From Lewinellaceae bacterium SD302 (lineage in GTDB: Bacteria; Bacteroidota; Bacteroidia; Chitinophagales; Saprospiraceae), in the NCBI GenBank assembly GCA_002591745.1, contig PDLQ01000009.1, positions 1 through 64,000 on the forward strand: a stretch of DNA of 64,000 bases, in the 5' to 3' direction. Below the pieces are notes generated by a model. That model was not told where the DNA came from and did not search any database. It worked only from the letters and a program-made list of their open reading frames with translations. Numbering within the stretch: position 1 is the stretch's first letter; each line of letters begins with the position of its first letter. Position numbers and translations under genes: made by a program. Shown here one piece after another: positions 9,356-21,845 of the stretch.

Positions 9356-12091
9356 TTATTTCTTACGCTTTTGGTTCGCAGCGTTGACGATTTGGACTCG
9401 CCGTTGCTGAGATGCCAAAAGGCCAAAGACTGACTCCCGGGGTTCGTCGAGCCGGTCACTGATATTTTCTACCGTAGGTCGGCTTTCCCCGAAGGACTCA
9501 CCAGACATATTGAGTTTTCCGGAATTGATGTAAGACATCAGCGCACCGTTATTGTACCGTCGGAAATAATTTCGCACGGCATCATTTCGGCGATCACTCA
9601 ACCGCAGGTTGTAGTCTTCCCCGGCCCTCGGACTGGCGAATCCACGTAGTTCAATTTCAAAGCTACCACCGTTACGCAGGTGTTGTTCCAGCGCTTGGGT
9701 GAAAGCTTCCAATTTATCTCGGCCACCTTTCACTTGCAGGTCAAAGAAGTCCATAAATCTGGCGGCCAACGGAAATGCTTCTGCGGGTGGCTTCCCTTCG
9801 GTGTACGTATCGATGAACTCCTTACGGCGGCTGTAGTAGGGCTCGTAAGTCTCCGTATAAGAGAGGCTCGTCGTCCGCTGATAGGTCCGCGGGTTGGGGT
9901 TATCATTATCGAAGTAGACTTCCAGTGGCAACAGCAAATCCAGGTTATTGGGGAAGAGTGGAATCACGTAACGCAGTCTACCGTCTTTAAGCCTCAGTTC
10001 TTCGGGGTCGATCAGCAAAGTATCGGTCCGGCTGATATAATCCGGCCGACTGGTCTTAACTACGAACGAGCGATTGAGATTAACGGTGAAGTTGAAGTCG
10101 TTACCATCGTTATTGGTTTTGATTCCAACCCGGTCTCCGCCCACTCGTGACAGATCTACGGTCGCTCCGGTCAGCGGATCGTCGGTAATACCGTCTACCA
10201 CCAGAATTTCCAGTAGTTGCCCCAGGTAAAGATCTTTGCGAATCGATTGTCCGTCGGGTACGTATTCCCTGAGATCCAGGGGCTCGATCGCCTCTCCAAA
10301 GCCATCTCGTTGGCCAACGATCACGTAATTTTTCCCGGCATCCAGAGAAAAGGTTACGTCATTTCCGTCGGGGTTTATCTGCTCCGCTACGGGAATCCGA
10401 TTACCCTCGGCGTCTAATTCGTAAAGATTTACGGTTACCCCATTCAAAGCGCTATCATCGTTACCATTAAAAGTAAACACATTCAATTCCACCGCCGGAG
10501 CCAGATAGAGATCGCGGCGGATCAGTCCTTGGTTAGCCAGTTCGGGGTCGTTCAGGTCGATGACGTCCACCACACTGCTGAACCCGGGCTTGGTGGCCCG
10601 CAACTCATATTTCTGACCAGGCTCCAACTTAAAGGCAAAATCGTTGCCTTCCAGATTAATGATCTCATCAACCAGTTCAGGGCCGTTAGGTGTCATCAGG
10701 TAAAGGCCTACGGTGGCTCCCAGCAACTCCTGATCAGTCAGTAAATTAAACGTTCTGGCCAGCAGATCGATTCGATTATCCGGGGTGAAGGAGTAGATGT
10801 CGTAGCAACAGACTTCCTTATCCTCGGAGTAGAAAATAGCGTCGGGTACCTGGCGAGTACTACTTAGGAAAGCCTTATCGTCATCGTTGGGTGATTGGCT
10901 GTAGTAGGCATCATCGAAAGATGAATTGACCGGCAGCCCCAGGTTAAGCGGGGTGGTAAATTCATCCCCTTCCAGGTAAGACTTATAAATATCCAGTCCA
11001 CCGAAAGTAAACCGGCCGTCGGTGGCGAAGTAAAGTGACTGACGCTCGCTATGGTAAAAAGGTGTCACATCATTACGGCTGGTATTCAAATCCGTAAGCG
11101 GTTTAATTGTCCCGGGTTCCCCATCACTATTTAGTGGAGCCATATAAAGGTCCATTCCCCCTACCCCACCGGGGCGATTGGAGGCAAAGAAAAGTGCTTC
11201 GGTACCGTCGGCCAGGGTGGCCACATTAGGCATGGTCGTACTGAAACCGGCTTCGTTCAGTGCGTCGATGGGGCGCACATTACTGAAAGTACCGTCGGCA
11301 GCCGCGTCGGCTCGGTGCAGGTTACAGATCATTTTGTCCCTTACCGTATAATCACAGATGGTAAAAAACACTTCTTTGCCGTCGGCGCTAAAGGTCGTGT
11401 GGGTAACGAGCTGGCGCTCCCGGTTCATTACTCCTTCCAGTGCTTTAGGATCCTCGCTGCCACTTCCACGCATAATCTTGGAGAGGTAACGCGGTGGATT
11501 CAACGTGTCTTTGTCAAAAACGAAACGGAGGCTGGATAAGTAACGGTCTCCGTTCGTCCGCTCCAGGTAGGCGTAATCGGAATTCTCCGAATTGATCGGT
11601 GCCCCCAAGTGATTCATGTCGATATCTCTGGCGTCGGGAGCTTCGTCGATAGAAGTGTTGGCGTTATCAACATTCAGCTGGGCTCTTTCCCTCAGTTCTT
11701 CGTCGGCACCGGTTTGCTCATCCAGGAAGGTTTGGTAGTTCAGTGCCGCCAGATCGTAATTGCCCGTAAAGAAATAATCTTCGGCCAGGTAGTAGCGGGC
11801 GTTCGGGTACTCGCCTGCTTCGGGCAACGTCAGTAATTTCAGCAAAGCTTCGGCCGAAACGCGGTAAGCGCGGGCGTGATAAGCAGACTCCCCCAGTTTC
11901 GCCAGTGCCACCGGGTCGTTCTCCTTGTTCGGAAACTCCATGGCAATCCGATAAAAGCGGTAGGCGCTATAATGATCTTCCATCATCGCCGCCTCATCAC
12001 CCGCCTCCAGGTAGCCCGAGTAAGATTGTCGTTGCCCAATCAGCAGTTGACAACTCATCACCAAGGCGAGTAGTAGTACTATTTTTTTCAT
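9356..12091 (-). CDS. PorE-like TPR / PD40 / carboxypeptidase-regulatory / OmpA protein
   Basis: The 911-residue protein has an N-terminal signal sequence, then TPR-like helices (about 25-150). PD40/WD40-like blades follow at about 230-440 (FFASNRPGGVGGMDLY, LYFATDGRFTFGGLDIY), then three carboxypeptidase-regulatory-like repeats (about 445-720), and an OmpA-like domain in the last 150 residues. The peptidoglycan-binding signature is seen as YNLRLSDRRNDAVRNYF. This domain order is that of PorE, the T9SS component that anchors the machinery to peptidoglycan. It sits 23 bp after the PorP/SprF gene and 31 bp before the adhesin gene, so it is probably co-transcribed with both. Whether it is core PorE or an adhesin-dedicated paralogue cannot be decided here. 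Confidence 0.85.
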   Translation of the reverse strand: MKKIVLLLALVMSCQLLIGQRQSYSGYLEAGDEAAMMEDHYSAYRFYRIAMEFPNKENDPVALAKLGESAYHARAYRVSAEALLKLLTLPEAGEYPNARYYLAEDYFFTGNYDLAALNYQTFLDEQTGADEELRERAQLNVDNANTSIDEAPDARDIDMNHLGAPINSENSDYAYLERTNGDRYLSSLRFVFDKDTLNPPRYLSKIMRGSGSEDPKALEGVMNRERQLVTHTTFSADGKEVFFTICDYTVRDKMICNLHRADAAADGTFSNVRPIDALNEAGFSTTMPNVATLADGTEALFFASNRPGGVGGMDLYMAPLNSDGEPGTIKPLTDLNTSRNDVTPFYHSERQSLYFATDGRFTFGGLDIYKSYLEGDEFTTPLNLGLPVNSSFDDAYYSQSPNDDDKAFLSSTRQVPDAIFYSEDKEVCCYDIYSFTPDNRIDLLARTFNLLTDQELLGATVGLYLMTPNGPELVDEIINLEGNDFAFKLEPGQKYELRATKPGFSSVVDVIDLNDPELANQGLIRRDLYLAPAVELNVFTFNGNDDSALNGVTVNLYELDAEGNRIPVAEQINPDGNDVTFSLDAGKNYVIVGQRDGFGEAIEPLDLREYVPDGQSIRKDLYLGQLLEILVVDGITDDPLTGATVDLSRVGGDRVGIKTNNDGNDFNFTVNLNRSFVVKTSRPDYISRTDTLLIDPEELRLKDGRLRYVIPLFPNNLDLLLPLEVYFDNDNPNPRTYQRTTSLSYTETYEPYYSRRKEFIDTYTEGKPPAEAFPLAARFMDFFDLQVKGGRDKLEAFTQALEQHLRNGGSFEIELRGFASPRAGEDYNLRLSDRRNDAVRNYFRRYNNGALMSYINSGKLNMSGESFGESRPTVENISDRLDEPRESVFGLLASQQRRVQIVNAANQKRKK

Positions 12092-12114
12092 TGCTTGTTA
12101 GTTCTTGGGAAGAT

Positions 12115-13161
12115 TTAAATCAGCGGACAACTCTTAAAAGAAAGCGGTTTCCTTACGTTTCGGATCAGGTAGCGTAAACTGATCTCCAGCCCGCCCCGGT
12201 TCTCGGTGGCAATATCGAAGCGGCTGACGTTTAAATCGTAATTCAGGGCAATTTCGATGTTATTCAGCCCCAGTTCCATGGTCGGCCACCAGGAATCCTG
12301 GATTTCATTGCGGCGCATCCCCATCCCTACAAGAATGTTGAATTGACGCCCCAGTTTATTATTAAGGTGTAAGCGAACTCCACCCATCGCCAAAAATTCT
12401 TCGTATTCACCTTGGTTCTGGAAAGTCAGGTTACCTACCAAGTCAATGGGCTTGGCAATTTGCAATGTACCCATTGCATAAGGACTCAGGCGGCGTTCCA
12501 GTGGAACTTCAGTATCTTCAATGAAGGATTGTTCTGGCTCGAAGAGGTGAAAAAGTGCTACCCCTACATCGATCTTGGTCCGACGGTCATTCCGGTGCAC
12601 CAGATTGGACGTTTGCTTGGCCTGGAAACGCAGGTTGATCCCGGCACCGAAGTCGGGAAAAAGCCGGCTGTCGTTGGCGAAATTCTCACCGGAATTCAGA
12701 TTTTCATCGAAGATCTGACCATTGAACTGGTTATCAAAACGTAGATTATCCTCATCAAAGGCCCTGGAAACCAGCCCGGCCTGCCCGCCCACAGTCAGGA
12801 AGAACTGCTGAGAAAGCCCGAAGGTATAGGATAGATTGAGGTCCACGTCTCCCCAGGTCAGTTTACTGTCGCCGGCCCGATCGTAATTGAGGGCAATGCC
12901 CCCTGAGAAAAAGCCCTTGGCATCACTGCGCCCCAGAAACTTACGGTCATAGGCCGCGGTGAAAGTCTTATAATCGACCGGTACATCCGTCCATTGGGAC
13001 TTATAGTTCCCCATCAGCCGGCCATCGCCTTCGAAAATTCCCGTCAGAGCGGGGTTCAGGTGGTGGGGAGCATGGTAGAACTGACTGTAATGGAAATCCT
13101 GAGCGCCAAGCACTCCACAGATCAGCCAGCCAAGCAGCAAAAGCGTAGATGTTCTTTTCAT
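12115..13161 (-). CDS. PorP/SprF family type IX secretion outer-membrane protein
   Basis: The 348-residue protein has a signal peptide (residues 1-20, ending VLGA) followed by the family hallmark QDFHYSQFYHAPHHLNPALTG. It continues with alternating strands typical of a beta-barrel outer-membrane protein, and its length is normal for the family. PorP/SprF proteins are needed for secretion or surface retention of a neighbouring CHU_C adhesin, as SprF is for SprB. Here it is the first gene of a three-gene operon ending in such an adhesin. A TGCTACTTTG box with a TTTG 23 bp upstream lies about 90 bp before the start and could be its promoter. Confidence 0.92.
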   Translation of the reverse strand: MKRTSTLLLLGWLICGVLGAQDFHYSQFYHAPHHLNPALTGIFEGDGRLMGNYKSQWTDVPVDYKTFTAAYDRKFLGRSDAKGFFSGGIALNYDRAGDSKLTWGDVDLNLSYTFGLSQQFFLTVGGQAGLVSRAFDEDNLRFDNQFNGQIFDENLNSGENFANDSRLFPDFGAGINLRFQAKQTSNLVHRNDRRTKIDVGVALFHLFEPEQSFIEDTEVPLERRLSPYAMGTLQIAKPIDLVGNLTFQNQGEYEEFLAMGGVRLHLNNKLGRQFNILVGMGMRRNEIQDSWWPTMELGLNNIEIALNYDLNVSRFDIATENRGGLEISLRYLIRNVRKPLSFKSCPLI

Positions 13162-13690: not shown

Positions 13691-13825
13691 ATTAAGATAC
13701 TTTAAATTCTCTATGGGTTGGGTTTCCGCCTGACCGCTTTCCAATTTTTGCTTTCGTTGGCACTTGCCTCAGCACTATTTCCCCCCGTGTGTTGTGGCCA
13801 TTTTCTAATTGCCAATGGATTGAAC

Positions 13826-14824
13826 GTGAAGCAGCTATTAATTTCCCTCTTTTTAATTTGCAGTGTATCACTCACCGCGAATAACATCATCTACGTCAGT
13901 ACGTCAGGTACGACTTCAGGCTCGGGTTCCGATTGGAGCACTGCTACTTCGTTAGTCAACGCCTGTAACACAGCAACTGCTGGCGACGAGATCTGGGTAG
14001 CCCAAGGCACCTACCTTCCCGGCGATAGCCGTACTTCTTCCTTTAATATCCCCGCCGGCGTACGAGTTTACGGTGGCTTCTCCGGTCAGGAGACTACGCT
14101 CGACCAGCGTCAGCCAGCCAGCTACATCACTACCCTGAGCGGCAACATTGGCGATCGCAACGATCAGGAAGACAACGTATATACCGTAGTAACTATGAAT
14201 AACGCCGGAGGGAAAACGGTACTTGACGGCTTCGTGCTCACGGGAGGGAAAGCGACTGAGTTCATTCATGACTTCACCATGGCTACTACCGGTGGCGCCC
14301 TTTACATCAGCGGCGGCAACAACGGACAGGGTCCATTGATTAAGAACTGTACTTTCACCGGCAACATGGCCAATAACGGTGGCGCGGTTTTCATCAACGG
14401 CAGCAACGGATACGTGAAGCCTCAATTCGTAAGCTGTACTTTCAATGACAACAAAGCCGTACTGAAAGGTGGCGCTATCTTCAACGACGCCACTAACGGC
14501 AAAGTGGAAGCCATCTTCGAAAACTGTTCTTTCAACCACAACGGTGCTACCAACGGCGGCTGCATCCTCAACAATGGCGACAACGGAGAAAGCAAGCCTC
14601 TCGTCATCAACAGCGAGTTTACCGGCAATACCGCCGCTTCCGCCGGATCGGTCATCTACAACCTTGTAAAGAACGGCGGCACTGCCAACCAAACGATGAA
14701 CAATTGTAAGCTGGAAGATAATGTCAGTCACCTGGGAGGCGCCATTGGTTCCAACAGCAATATTCAACAAAGCGCTTCATCCTCACCAAACAACAACGGC
14801 GGTACACTACGTCCCGTCAACTAA
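13826..14824 (+). CDS. Secreted right-handed beta-helix (pectate-lyase-like) surface protein
   Basis: I chose the GTG start because it gives a classical signal peptide (KQLLISLFLICSVSLTA). An in-frame ATG at 13718 adds 36 hydrophobic residues and TTG 13820 is also possible. The protein opens with IYVSTSGTTSGSGSDW, then TAGDEIWVAQGTYLPGD and a VYGGFSGQET strand. Repeating NCTFTGNMANNGGAVF-like coils follow, typical of choice-of-anchor/parallel beta-helix proteins (PbH1 repeats). At about 332 residues it is short. It ends in a Ser/Asn-rich tail with no T9SS sorting domain, so the C-terminus may have been lost or it may be exported another way. No catalytic residues can be assigned. Confidence 0.75.
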   Translation: MKQLLISLFLICSVSLTANNIIYVSTSGTTSGSGSDWSTATSLVNACNTATAGDEIWVAQGTYLPGDSRTSSFNIPAGVRVYGGFSGQETTLDQRQPASYITTLSGNIGDRNDQEDNVYTVVTMNNAGGKTVLDGFVLTGGKATEFIHDFTMATTGGALYISGGNNGQGPLIKNCTFTGNMANNGGAVFINGSNGYVKPQFVSCTFNDNKAVLKGGAIFNDATNGKVEAIFENCSFNHNGATNGGCILNNGDNGESKPLVINSEFTGNTAASAGSVIYNLVKNGGTANQTMNNCKLEDNVSHLGGAIGSNSNIQQSASSSPNNNGGTLRPVN

Positions 14825-14888: not shown

Positions 14889-16865
14889 TTACCTATTAGG
14901 GCTGCCGATAATCGGTGGCCCTTTTTTAGAGCTATACCTACCTAGCTGCATATCCACTACCGGTATCAAAACAGTCACCCGCGTACCAGCCGCCTCTCCA
15001 TGTTCATCATAGAGGTCAGTGATCGTCACGGGCGAAAGACTTTCTTCTTCCGTTTCGGTATTCAGCAGCCGTAATCGGCTGAGGGTAATGTCCGTACCCC
15101 TGGAACGGTGTTCGGAGCGGCGGGGGTCCTTGGCCTGAATTTCAGCCACTTTGGATCGCCCTACCCCGTTGTCTTCCACCGTAGCCAGAATGGTACTTTC
15201 GTCGTGAACAACGAAGCTAATGTCAATCCGGCCGGGTTTTTGTCCGCGCAGGCCATGCTCGATCGAATTTTCTACGTAAGGCTGAATGATCATTGTCGGC
15301 ACGCCCAGGATGTCTTCTTCCAGTTCTTCATCTACGGTCAGAGTATATTGGAGCCGGCCTTCGAAACGCAAGTGGCAGTTAATCTCCAGGTAATTGGTCA
15401 AAAAGACAATCTCGTCTTCCAGGCTGATGTATTCAAGGTTGGTGTACTCCAGACTTTGGCGCATCAACATGGCGAACTGGGCGAGGTACTTGCTGGCCGT
15501 ACTGGCCTTGTTGGTGGTAATAAAGGACTGGATGGAATTCAGACAATTGTACAGAAAGTGGGGGTTCATCTGTGCCCGCAAAGCCCGCAACTGTAGCTGT
15601 ACAGCCTTGAGTTTTAGCCGCTCCGCTTCCTTTTCACGGGCCTCGGATTCGTATTTGGCCTCCAGCTCCCGTTGCTGTTGCAGATTGAGCCGGTCCCGGT
15701 ATTCGAGTTGGTGGTCATCGTAATGCAACTGGGCCAGGTAGGCGGAGCGATAATCGCCGGTTGTGGCGTAAAGACGGCCCAGTTCGTAATACGTCTCGGC
15801 CAGGACCTGGGGGCTATCCGCTAATTCCGCCAGGTTAGCCGCTCGCTTTAGTTGCTTGATTGCTTCGTCGAAATCGGACTGCCCTTCCCGAATTTTGGCT
15901 CGAAAAATGGCCATAGTGGCCGCATTTACGTAATCCTCGTTGTCCAGTGCCTGGTAGGCGGCTTCGGCACGATCAATGTATTGCTCGGCCACGGTAAAAT
16001 CTTCGCAGTCAATATAATAGCTCCCCAGATTCCCCAGCGCTGCGGCGCGGGCCTTGGTACTATCATCGGCGCGACTTTCCAAGACTTTATTGAAATAGTA
16101 AGCAGCTTTGGAGGTTTCTTCCGCCAACCAGTAAGCATTACCCATATTCAGGTAATTCCAGGCTTGGCGGCCACTAAGACCGATGGCTTCGCTACGTTCG
16201 ATCGTTCGCTGATATGCTTCGATAGCTTTGAGGGGGTAGCCAGTCCGTTCGTAAACGTTTCCGAGTCCGGTATTAATCAGTGTATGAAAGTAGTGCCCCT
16301 TCAGGCTGAGTTCCCGCTGACGATTCCCGATCACGGTCAGGGCCTGCAGGTAATACTGAATAGCCTTGGGGTAATTACTGAGGCCCAGGTGCATGGCGGC
16401 GTAACGACAATCAGCCCGGGCGGCCAGTTCGTCGTCGGGAAAATTCTCCAGTAACTTTACGGCCATTTCCAGGAAATACTCCGCCCGTTCCATGGCCTCC
16501 TGATTAATCAGGTTTCCGGCCAGGTCGATATAAAGATCGATACGTTGAGAGATAGAGCCATACTCATCCACCAGCTCCCTGGCTTCGTTTAAAGCTGCTT
16601 CTGCTGCGGTATAATCGTAACGTTGATTGAGGAAGGTAGCAAGATGACCGAGGTAAACAAGTCGCTCGTCGGGCAGTTCGTTTCCCTCCAGCAACCGTGC
16701 TTGTTCTTTGAGTAATTCCTCGGCCCGGGCCGGTTTGGTATAGACGTATAAAGCAAGGACCTGATTGATCAGGTCCACTCGAGGTTCTCGGCTGGAAACG
16801 GTAGTTAATTCCGCTTCGAGTTGCAATAATGTGGCTTGCTTTCGCTTCAGGTCCGTTGTAATCAT
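14889..16865 (-). CDS. Soluble TPR-domain histidine kinase of the LytS/His_kinase family
   Basis: The 658-residue protein has TPR repeats over about residues 30-390, a coiled coil (390-430), the His_kinase core QMNPHFLYNCLNSIQSF with phospho-acceptor His436, and an ATPase domain with PYVENSIEHGL (529-539) and DNGVG. No signal peptide or membrane helix is visible, so it is predicted cytoplasmic, unlike classical LytS. It is the last gene of an operon with a LytTR response regulator and a double-glycine peptide, 42 bp after the peptide gene. The pairing with the regulator is inferred from the operon. The TPR array may sense a peptide or a protein partner, as in RRNPP regulators, but this is inference. 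Confidence 0.88.
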   Translation of the reverse strand: MITTDLKRKQATLLQLEAELTTVSSREPRVDLINQVLALYVYTKPARAEELLKEQARLLEGNELPDERLVYLGHLATFLNQRYDYTAAEAALNEARELVDEYGSISQRIDLYIDLAGNLINQEAMERAEYFLEMAVKLLENFPDDELAARADCRYAAMHLGLSNYPKAIQYYLQALTVIGNRQRELSLKGHYFHTLINTGLGNVYERTGYPLKAIEAYQRTIERSEAIGLSGRQAWNYLNMGNAYWLAEETSKAAYYFNKVLESRADDSTKARAAALGNLGSYYIDCEDFTVAEQYIDRAEAAYQALDNEDYVNAATMAIFRAKIREGQSDFDEAIKQLKRAANLAELADSPQVLAETYYELGRLYATTGDYRSAYLAQLHYDDHQLEYRDRLNLQQQRELEAKYESEAREKEAERLKLKAVQLQLRALRAQMNPHFLYNCLNSIQSFITTNKASTASKYLAQFAMLMRQSLEYTNLEYISLEDEIVFLTNYLEINCHLRFEGRLQYTLTVDEELEEDILGVPTMIIQPYVENSIEHGLRGQKPGRIDISFVVHDESTILATVEDNGVGRSKVAEIQAKDPRRSEHRSRGTDITLSRLRLLNTETEEESLSPVTITDLYDEHGEAAGTRVTVLIPVVDMQLGRYSSKKGPPIIGSPNR

Positions 16866-16907
16866 TTCATGTGACGGGCGAGGAAAGCAAAACTAACGGC
16901 AATTCGA

Positions 16908-17120
16908 CTACTGAGGGGTGATGTCGCCGCAGATCCGGCGTAACCACCAGCTGCTTCGCTTACCCCCCTTAATGTTGGCCATATCTTTCTTATCGAAAGT
17001 AGGGTTGTTTTTACGTAGTTCGTCAATCGTTTTCTTCCCTTTATTAGACATTTGCTTAAAATTGGGTGTAGTTTTCTCAGGGACTAAATTATGCTTTTTC
17101 CCCGACATAGCCGGGGCCAT
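16908..17120 (-). CDS. Double-glycine-leader peptide, putative pheromone or bacteriocin precursor
   Basis: This 70-residue gene starts 3 bp after the LytTR regulator's stop codon and ends 42 bp before the kinase. Residues 42-53 (FDKKDMANIKGG) fit the double-glycine leader consensus: hydrophobic at -12 (Phe), acidic at -8 (Asp), hydrophobic at -7 (Met) and -4 (Ile), Gly-Gly at -2/-1. Cleavage after Gly53 would release a 17-residue cationic peptide with adjacent tryptophans and a single cysteine (KRSSWWLRRICGDITPQ). An internal ATG at 17108 is an alternative start. Known precursors of this type are cut and exported by C39-peptidase ABC transporters; none is in the window. Its place between regulator and kinase suggests an autoinducer, although a bacteriocin or modified natural product is possible. 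Confidence 0.7.
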   Translation of the reverse strand: MAPAMSGKKHNLVPEKTTPNFKQMSNKGKKTIDELRKNNPTFDKKDMANIKGGKRSSWWLRRICGDITPQ

Positions 17121-17123
17121 AAA

Positions 17124-17885
17124 TTAGATGCCTTCCTGTAAACGGCGTAATTGCTCCATAAATGCGGGCCTGCGGCGGCGAGAAACTTCGATCTTTATAT
17201 CATCGTCCATGATCAGGTACCCACCATCACCCTTAACAAATCTTCGCATGTAATTGAGGTTGATTACGTGCCTTTTATGGACTCGATAGAAGTTAAAGGG
17301 GGTCAGCATGTCCTCGTAAGCCTTAATGGTCTTGGAGGCGGTAATCCGCTGCCCACCCTGCATAAAAATGTGGGTATAATTGTCTTCGGCTTCGAAGCGG
17401 ATAATTTCCCGAATTTTAACAAAATGAATACCATCCAGGGCGGCAATCGACATCTTTTCGAAAGCGTTGGGGTGGTTGTTGTAGTTCTGCATTACCTGCA
17501 ACCGTTCCTCCGTTCGGCTCTGAATGCGTGGCTGTATCCGGGATACGGCCGTAACCAGCTGCTCAGGATTAATGGGCTTGAGGATGTAACCGATGGAAGC
17601 GTACTCGCAAGCTTTTACGGCAAACTGATCATAAGCAGTTACAAAAATGATGTCGAAGGTGATCGGCCGCAGTCGGTTCAACAACTGAAAAACCTGACCA
17701 TCGTGTAGGTTGATGTCTAAAAAAGCTACGTCGACCTGAAGTGTCGGATCACTGAACAACTCATAGCCGCTCTGTACTCCGTCGGCTACGCCGATTACTT
17801 CCACATCGTCGCAGTGCTCGCCGAGCATATGCTTTAAATTGACGAGTCCTTTCTGCTCGTCTTCTACGATTACGGCATTCAACAT
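17124..17885 (-). CDS. LytTR-family response regulator
   Basis: From the ATG at 17885 the protein has a receiver domain (MLNAVIVEDEQKG; phospho-acceptor Asp in VAFLDINL; conserved Lys in ILKPI). A LytTR DNA-binding domain follows (IIRFEAEDNYTHIF, FYRVHKRHVINLNYM). An ATG at 17927 would add 14 residues not typical of receivers, so I chose the inner start. Such regulators bind direct repeats and are activated by His_kinase-family sensors. The gene heads an operon with the small double-glycine peptide and the TPR kinase, and a -7 element lies upstream at 17978-17985. Confidence 0.92.
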   Translation of the reverse strand: MLNAVIVEDEQKGLVNLKHMLGEHCDDVEVIGVADGVQSGYELFSDPTLQVDVAFLDINLHDGQVFQLLNRLRPITFDIIFVTAYDQFAVKACEYASIGYILKPINPEQLVTAVSRIQPRIQSRTEERLQVMQNYNNHPNAFEKMSIAALDGIHFVKIREIIRFEAEDNYTHIFMQGGQRITASKTIKAYEDMLTPFNFYRVHKRHVINLNYMRRFVKGDGGYLIMDDDIKIEVSRRRRPAFMEQLRRLQEGI

Positions 17886-17977
17886 CTTTTGTCCTGATTT
17901 TTTCACATCCATGTTTTTTAAGAACATAGACTTCTCTCAAAAAAGCTCTTTCTGTCGGCCCTTCAACTGGGGGCCTA

Positions 17978-17985
17978 CAAATGTA
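17978..17985 (-). promoter_or_regulatory. -7 promoter element (TACATTTG) of the LytTR-peptide-kinase operon
   Basis: TACATTTG on the minus strand matches the Bacteroidota TAnnTTTG consensus. It lies 50-100 bp before the possible starts of the regulator. No clear -33 TTG is seen. A short GGCCC/GGGCC hairpin lies just downstream in the leader. Confidence 0.5.
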
Positions 17986-21548: not shown

Positions 21549-21845
21549 TTACTTGGCCATCGCATTCTTGATTGCGCTGACGATGCCCAGCAAAGCTCCG
21601 CCACCAACGCCGCCACCGGCAACGCTGCCAAGGATGCTGGCGATGTCCATGGAAGAAGAAGCGTTGGCTGCCTCGGCACCTTCCATGCCCAGCATACCTA
21701 GTAACTGGCCACCCAAACCGCCTCCTACAATACCGAGGATGCTGTTCACGACCGTCCCCATATCGAGGCTTTTGACGATGTTAGCGATGATGTTGCCCCC
21801 AGCGGCACCGCTTATGAGCTGAATAATGAGTGGTAACCAATCCAT
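21549..21845 (-). CDS. Small Gly/Ala-rich hydrophobic protein of unknown function
   Basis: This 98-residue protein has hydrophobic glycine-zipper-like stretches (IISGAAGGNIIANIV-type, GIVGGGLGGQLLGMLGM, GSVAGGGVGGGALLGIV) and no signal peptide. I do not recognise a named family. It may insert into membranes or self-assemble. It has its own terminator at 21496-21529. A (GT)14 tract sits 25 bp upstream of the start, which could make expression variable by slippage. Confidence 0.7.
   Translation of the reverse strand: MDWLPLIIQLISGAAGGNIIANIVKSLDMGTVVNSILGIVGGGLGGQLLGMLGMEGAEAANASSSMDIASILGSVAGGGVGGGALLGIVSAIKNAMAK

Follow-up and report, generated by a model that had tools for sequence, protein, structure and literature searches.

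Peptide signalling has been described mainly from Bacillota, in which membrane kinases sense peptides outside the cell and RRNPP proteins sense them inside. The first 64,000 nucleotides of contig PDLQ01000009.1 (C137) of Lewinellaceae bacterium SD302 (Saprospiraceae, Bacteroidota; host genome 5.5 Mb), the whole stretch analysed here and hereafter the window, lie at the beginning of that contig and encode a small double-glycine (GG) peptide between a LytTR response regulator and a soluble histidine kinase with tetratricopeptide repeats (TPRs). On which side of the membrane is such a peptide read? Comparison of the locus with its relatives suggests that these Gram-negative Saprospiraceae cells may read it from inside the cell. 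We regard it as an even call whether the three genes form a signalling module in which a C39-exported peptide fits its tail into the TPR superhelix of a cytoplasmic kinase of the LytS type. The features concerned are the following:

17978..17985, minus strand: -7-like box TACATTTG 5' of the regulator (from sequence only), like what we take to be the Bacteroidota -7 consensus
17124..17927, minus strand: LytTR response regulator (REC + LytTR; Pfam PF00072 45.7 bits and PF04397 69 bits, both over cut-off)
16908..17051, minus strand: double-glycine peptide precursor of 47 residues from an inner ATG (start and C-terminus conserved in 20 aligned peptides)
16962..17051, minus strand: peptide leader of 30 residues, MSNKGKKTIDELRKNNPTFDKKDMANIKGG (pattern recurring over 78 peptides from relatives)
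16911..16961, minus strand: predicted mature core KRSSWWLRRICGDITPQ, with the tail CGDITPQ (C-terminal consensus C-G-G-I-x-P-Q)
14889..16865, minus strand: soluble TPR histidine kinase with nine TPR hairpins and LytS-type His_kinase/HATPase (Pfam, AlphaFold2 model)

The peptide gene and its relatives

The minus-strand order regulator, peptide, kinase is seen in both the list of open reading frames (ORFs) and the sequence. In agreement with the original prediction, which had been made from the sequence alone, the ORF list, the sequence and Pfam bear out the tight arrangement, and 42 bp separate the peptide stop from the kinase ATG. That prediction had, however, started the peptide at the first ATG (17120), giving 70 residues and a gap of 3 bp to the regulator. 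We rejected this start because the sequence is conserved among relatives only from the inner ATG (17051) onwards; the peptide is therefore most likely 47 residues long, with a 30-residue leader followed by the core KRSSWWLRRICGDITPQ, and the gap is 72 bp. The regulator has 15 aligned orthologues (52–71% identity), and its conserved start probably lies nearer 17885, at an inner Met.

A chance ORF was ruled out by the matches within the genus, by the ratio of nonsynonymous to synonymous substitution rates (dN/dS), and by the recurrence of the peptide in 78 of 80 regulator loci compared with none in the controls. A search of 60 relatives gave peptide matches at E ≤ 1 in 30, and in 16 of the 20 same-genus genomes the peptide was matched at E ≤ 1.1e-6. 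The original prediction had staked itself on the small ORF and its Gly-Gly being kept in close relatives, which is mostly the case: Gly-Gly is present in the 16 same-genus peptides examined, and the other four genomes have no convincing match (G013 only at E 0.66; no match in G018, G019 and G010, the last being 55% complete). A 20-row peptide profile found matches in 84 of the 199 genomes of the family set at E ≤ 0.1, and in three of the 295 genomes of the class set, one being the own genome and the other two weak. Within the genus, the peptide had a median dN/dS of 0.086, from the 40 of 105 pairs that could be used and with dS near saturation, and the regulator one of 0.124 (49 pairs). When loci were fetched by similarity to the LytTR regulator alone (best 80 of 195 relatives), a GG peptide lay just downstream in 78 of the 80, 75 being recognised by a first pattern and three by eye. 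A second pattern, a GG ORF ending in P-x, was also found downstream of the regulator in 78/80 loci, as against 0/80 on the reverse strand and 0/78 on either strand of the upstream windows. The two loci without a peptide (L152 and L159) are also without a kinase there.

Since both patterns require GG and a proline near the C-terminus, the residue counts over these 78 peptides (72 distinct) are partly given by construction. The leader has L/I/M/V at -12, M at -7 (70/78), I/V/F at -4, and GG, and the window peptide carries F-12, D-8, M-7, I-4, G-2 and G-1, as originally described. We take this -12/-8/-7/-4/GG pattern to fit C39 substrates. At the other end, counting back from the last residue, P stands at -2 in 77 peptides, Q at -1 in 74, C at -7 in 66 and I at -4 in 66. 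The core had been predicted to vary, which holds for its middle, whereas its last seven residues are largely kept. Cores are 15–29 residues long (16–20 in 65/78), and their charge (K+R minus D+E) is zero or above in all 78, with a median of +4.

Such a short cationic core, together with the weak matches of some peptide members to models of GG-leader bacteriocins and ribosomally synthesized and post-translationally modified peptides (RiPPs), would suit a bacteriocin, RiPP or other exported effector placed under the adjacent two-component system, the kinase TPRs then sensing something else. The window peptide is over the cut-off for no known peptide family or curated bacteriocin/RiPP family searched (bacteriocin_sig, 13 bits against a cut-off of 15.7; TIGR04149, 14 bits against 25), and three of 20 peptide members match TIGR04149, the best at E 0.00098. 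It shares the GG leader with TIGR04149 and class II GG-leader peptides, but the window member falls below the family cut-off. We consider an effector unlikely, given the purifying selection, the single-copy kinase partner across the family, the survival of the tail rather than the leader where export is missing, and the one genome in which the absence of the peptide coincides with changed kinase residues (both described below). By eye, no modification or immunity gene lies near the trio in the window. The original suggestion of a bacteriocin-regulating circuit is not supported either: an inspection by eye of the window ORFs listed between 10 and 23 kb picked out no likely gene for a bacteriocin, for immunity or for modification.

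Some variants of the peptide were noted along the way. Genome G108 has two copies with the tail CGGIMPS (L271 and L292), only one of which adjoins the kinase. Longer cores mark a subfamily (L180, L181, L187, L189, L192, L196 and L198) whose tails are like CLGDLPQ or CQGELPQ. Locus L294 of genome G169 encodes a different GG-leader peptide, with a longer core and no P-Q tail, and no regulator or kinase was recognised in the 4 kb fetched.

The kinase and its link to the peptide

The kinase has 658 residues, with TPR_12 and His_kinase over the Pfam cut-off. Its AlphaFold2 model, built on 63 sequences, has nine TPR hairpins and a LytS-type kinase (mean predicted local distance difference test score 87.7; predicted template modelling score 0.66). 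Across 48 kinases, no 19-residue stretch had a mean hydropathy above 1.71, and seven of the ten highest stretches fell at about residue 542–544, in the ATPase domain. The soluble TPR kinase of the original prediction is therefore upheld, and from the absence of hydrophobic segments we infer a cytoplasmic location.

With six candidates scored per genome, the kinase was found in 101 of the 199 family genomes, with one match each at E ≤ 1e-100 except in G152, where it is split across two contigs. A single-copy kinase in this many genomes suggests that its role belongs to basic physiology rather than to a single competition cluster. Full-length matches among 149 class genomes occurred only in the own genome and in G070, which belongs to the same family; the other class matches listed begin at profile position 197 or later, and the remaining 11 matches in the own genome span the kinase domain only.

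Kinase and peptide match were found together in 82 of the 199 family genomes (including the doubtful peptide matches of G070 and G034), the peptide alone in two, the kinase alone in 19 and neither in 96. Eighteen of the 19 kinase-only genomes were read (G162 was left out). Ten of them (G091, G101, G103, G114, G117, G163, G195, G197, G207 and G237) have a divergent GG peptide ending in P-x that the profile had missed, G153 has a GG peptide ending in QP, and four (G068, G172, G121 and G210) have a leaderless peptide. Where kinase and regulator lie apart, the peptide adjoins the regulator in G135, G166 and G093 and the kinase in G065, G073 and G197, and it is therefore tied to neither one.

The model is similar to peptide-binding TPRs: its best Foldseek matches were TPR complexes of LGN (1.5e-9), with Rap of phage phi3T with its pheromone (9.3e-9), RapJ with its peptide (3.0e-7) and NprR (7.7e-7) further down, as well as the GanS kinase domain (4.3e-7). 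Such matches show TPR similarity and do not prove kinship; searching the PDB sequences with a profile also placed generic TPRs on top and Rap proteins lower. Helix A lines the inside of TPR superhelices. With the TPR register set by hand, the positions assigned to the concave face were more conserved than the rest of the helices (1.65 versus 2.08 bits, one-sided p=0.009), and polar residues are prominent on this assigned face (N80, Q81, E/D110, N121 and R150), as is W236.

Exporter, promoter and the side on which the peptide is read

C39-peptidase ABC transporters elsewhere in the genome had been proposed as something to look for, and two C39-ABC genes, both accompanied by an HlyD-like gene, lie outside the trio locus in the own genome. 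In the family, C39 was found in 82 of the 84 peptide-positive and in 42 of the 115 other genomes (Fisher 1.6e-21, kinship ignored); the only two peptide-positive genomes without it are G202, which is 71% complete, and G226, which is 97% complete. A tree was built from 21 of 22 C39 proteins, a fragment having been left out for its length. In this tree the own exporter on C67 groups with the proteins of six peptide-positive genomes, and the own exporter on C104 with those of G118, G119, G188 and G217, genomes in which no peptide was found. The two own proteins sit on long branches, several of the forks are poorly supported, and the genes entered were hand-picked from those listed. Beside the own genome's two C39 genes there is no convincing GG peptide, and such an arrangement was discarded in general, as the single pattern match in 22 C39 loci was judged to be chance. 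Six of 20 fetched C39 loci (L326, L333, L334, L336, L337 and L344) have an ORF like an HGxxE-type alpha/beta-hydrolase 5' of the C39 gene, some loci being cut by contig ends, and several have HlyD-like ORFs with the motif EVQEILG after it.

Of 77 loci, 37 have a TAnnTTTG box within 130 nt 5' of the peptide ATG (one locus being counted twice and the genus members being related), compared with a mean of 5.65 and at most 17 in base shuffles; the window lacks the box. Seven relatives from the N. persica clade (NCBI places the marine genus Neolewinella under Lewinellaceae) have, after the box, a series of three repeats (CGGT/CGGC/TGGT) spaced at exactly 21 bp, and 63 other loci gave a weak 21-bp signal (z 3.3, 2.5, 3.0 and 1.6 in four settings). 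LytTR proteins bind 9-bp repeats, mostly with 12-bp spacers, and triplets are known (PMC6193735, PMC11347149). Direct repeats with the 21-bp period used by LytTR proteins, for which the original prediction proposed to look, lie at the peptide promoter of seven relatives; none was seen in the window. A regulon drawn from the repeat motif was rejected: its 23 matches in 21 genus genomes comprised the seven peptide promoters and 16 sites without the triple repeat, and a backward control pattern gave eight.

Three natural experiments bear on the part of the peptide that matters. In genus g48, C39 was found in none of five genomes (one of them 79% complete), and all four kinase-bearing genomes have a peptide that lacks GG and ends in [YF]CGxxTPQ. 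In genus g101, both genomes have a tail ending in KWNSRCGDLLPH, again without GG. In G029 (87% complete), no C39 was found and no peptide lies between regulator and kinase; its kinase carries N121F, R233Q and W236I, at positions where N, R and W are found in 62, 63 and 63 of 63 aligned kinases. As far as sequence comparison can tell, these cases suggest that the peptide C-terminus is the intracellular ligand. The tail seems to be the part that the partner needs, and export seems to be separable from it.

Our preferred interpretation is that a small precursor would be made with its leader, and that a C39-peptidase ABC transporter with HlyD would cut after Gly-Gly and export the product. The conserved tail C-G-G-I-x-P-Q would be the part recognised, and the soluble LytS-type kinase would bind it intracellularly within its TPR superhelix. 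This binding would alter the activity of the kinase and, with it, how far the LytTR regulator is phosphorylated; the regulator would control at least the peptide promoter in some species. Cleavage, export, binding, the sign of the effect and the targets are the parts of this scheme that we infer. In its most economical version, the kinase would read peptide that is not yet exported and, as C39 export would remove the ligand, the output would report production against export; lineages without C39 would keep the tail and drop the leader. The draining of FlgM by the flagellum is a parallel. We put forward tentatively, as possible rather than probable, that a histidine kinase reads the tail of a C39-exported peptide from inside, with export as the drain against which production is measured. 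Reading from inside is favoured because the kinase has no membrane segments, the tail outlives leader and exporter, and in G029 peptide loss goes with changed TPR residues. The intracellular detection proposed originally thus gains from the leaderless variants, whereas its link to RRNPP receptors comes down to resemblance.

The same peptide could instead be a cell–cell signal, the C39-matured core being released, accumulating, and returning by way of a receptor in the outer membrane and a peptide importer in the inner one before its C-terminus binds the TPR kinase, as happens with Phr, PapR and NprX and their RRNPP receptors. The co-occurrence of GG leader and C39 would fit such a route, as would a soluble receptor whose TPRs match Rap and NprR in fold; RRNPP signals, too, have a short conserved C-terminus. 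However, the GG leader is absent from two genera in which tail and kinase persist, and no C39 was found in one of the two; the tail, unlike in pherotype systems, diverges little between species. We therefore consider re-import rather unlikely, and lean towards a peptide read before export.

At the other extreme, the peptide could be a purely intracellular small-protein regulator of the kinase, with an unprocessed GG leader that is regulatory or structural. The leaderless forms, the soluble kinase and the GG peptide of G226, in which no C39 was found, speak for this, but the C39-type leader pattern recurs over 78 peptides and C39 co-occurrence is strong, which makes it very unlikely.

Several observations weigh against a C39-exported peptide read from inside. 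The profile matches in G070, G034 and G169 were unlike the peptide when read, and G029, G105 and G173 have the kinase and no peptide found on reading their loci. G226, 97% complete, has a GG peptide and no C39 found, and in genus g101 the C39 of G121 still falls among those of peptide-positive genomes in the tree, despite the GG-less peptide. The C39 statistic ignores kinship between genomes, and the 28 genomes with C39 and without the kinase imply that C39 is not dedicated to the peptide. On the receptor side, the fold matches are to generic TPRs, the best being eukaryotic LGN, and the other helix-A positions (1, 3, 6, 10 and 14) average about 1.56 bits; being equally conserved, they indicate that the conservation is of helix A and not of the groove. 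G029 is a single case from a genome that is 87% complete. Moreover, G153, G117 and G207 differ at position 236 though the peptide is present, and G070 and G173 keep N121, R233 and W236 with no peptide found by their kinase. Only a single clade showed the direct repeats, and the repeat pattern revealed no further regulator targets in the genus genomes.

Known systems and neighbouring genes

The original prediction had placed the trio with ComC/ComD/ComE-type circuits. As in ComC/ComD/ComE and BlpC/BlpH/BlpR of streptococci, a GG peptide, a histidine kinase and a LytTR regulator share one locus, a C39 exporter is encoded in the genome, and in one clade repeats with a 21-bp period lie at the peptide promoter. 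In contrast to their membrane kinase, the Saprospiraceae receptor is soluble and has TPRs; here, moreover, the exporter lies outside the cluster, the tail is conserved across the family and the host is Gram-negative. Membership in ComCDE fails because the receptor is not membranous in any of the 48 kinases. With the RRNPP(A) systems of Bacillota (partners Phr, PapR and NprX) the module shares a cytoplasmic TPR superhelix adjoining a small peptide gene with a conserved C-terminus, but differs in its histidine kinase output, its C39-type leader and its receptor of 658 residues; RRNPP receptors are defined at 250–500 residues (PMC10075063). The FimS-type TPR kinases of Bacteroidota likewise combine TPRs with a LytS-type kinase, but the NCBIfam FimS match is weak (28.4 bits against a cut-off of 600). 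To our knowledge, FimS-type kinases have no partner peptide. As we interpret it, the module resembles RRNPP systems in how the peptide is read and ComCDE in its wiring, with one defining feature of each failing. We found no description of it in searches of the openly licensed PMC literature (preprints lay outside this scope), including passages of PMC8895600, PMC9765709 and PMC7595303 and, likewise, those of PMC10075063, PMC6193735 and PMC11347149.

A Gram-negative family appears to join both modes of peptide sensing, in that an RRNPP-like TPR kinase is found with a double-glycine peptide. If true, Bacteroidota would have a two-component system that senses a peptide intracellularly, and some lineages would have lost export while retaining the tail. 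With the leaderless lineages, the site of reading becomes directly testable, and the conserved tail offers an immediate synthetic ligand.

Other ORFs of the window were noted beside the trio. A small ORF rich in Gly, Ala and Ile (98 residues; 21549–21845, minus strand) has no Pfam match over cut-off. An ORF of 368 residues on the plus strand (13718–14824), by eye a repeat-rich surface protein that is possibly cut short, stops close to the kinase gene on the opposite strand. At 9356–13161 (minus strand) lie tandem OmpA-like and PorP/SprF-like ORFs, which we take to resemble type IX secretion loci.

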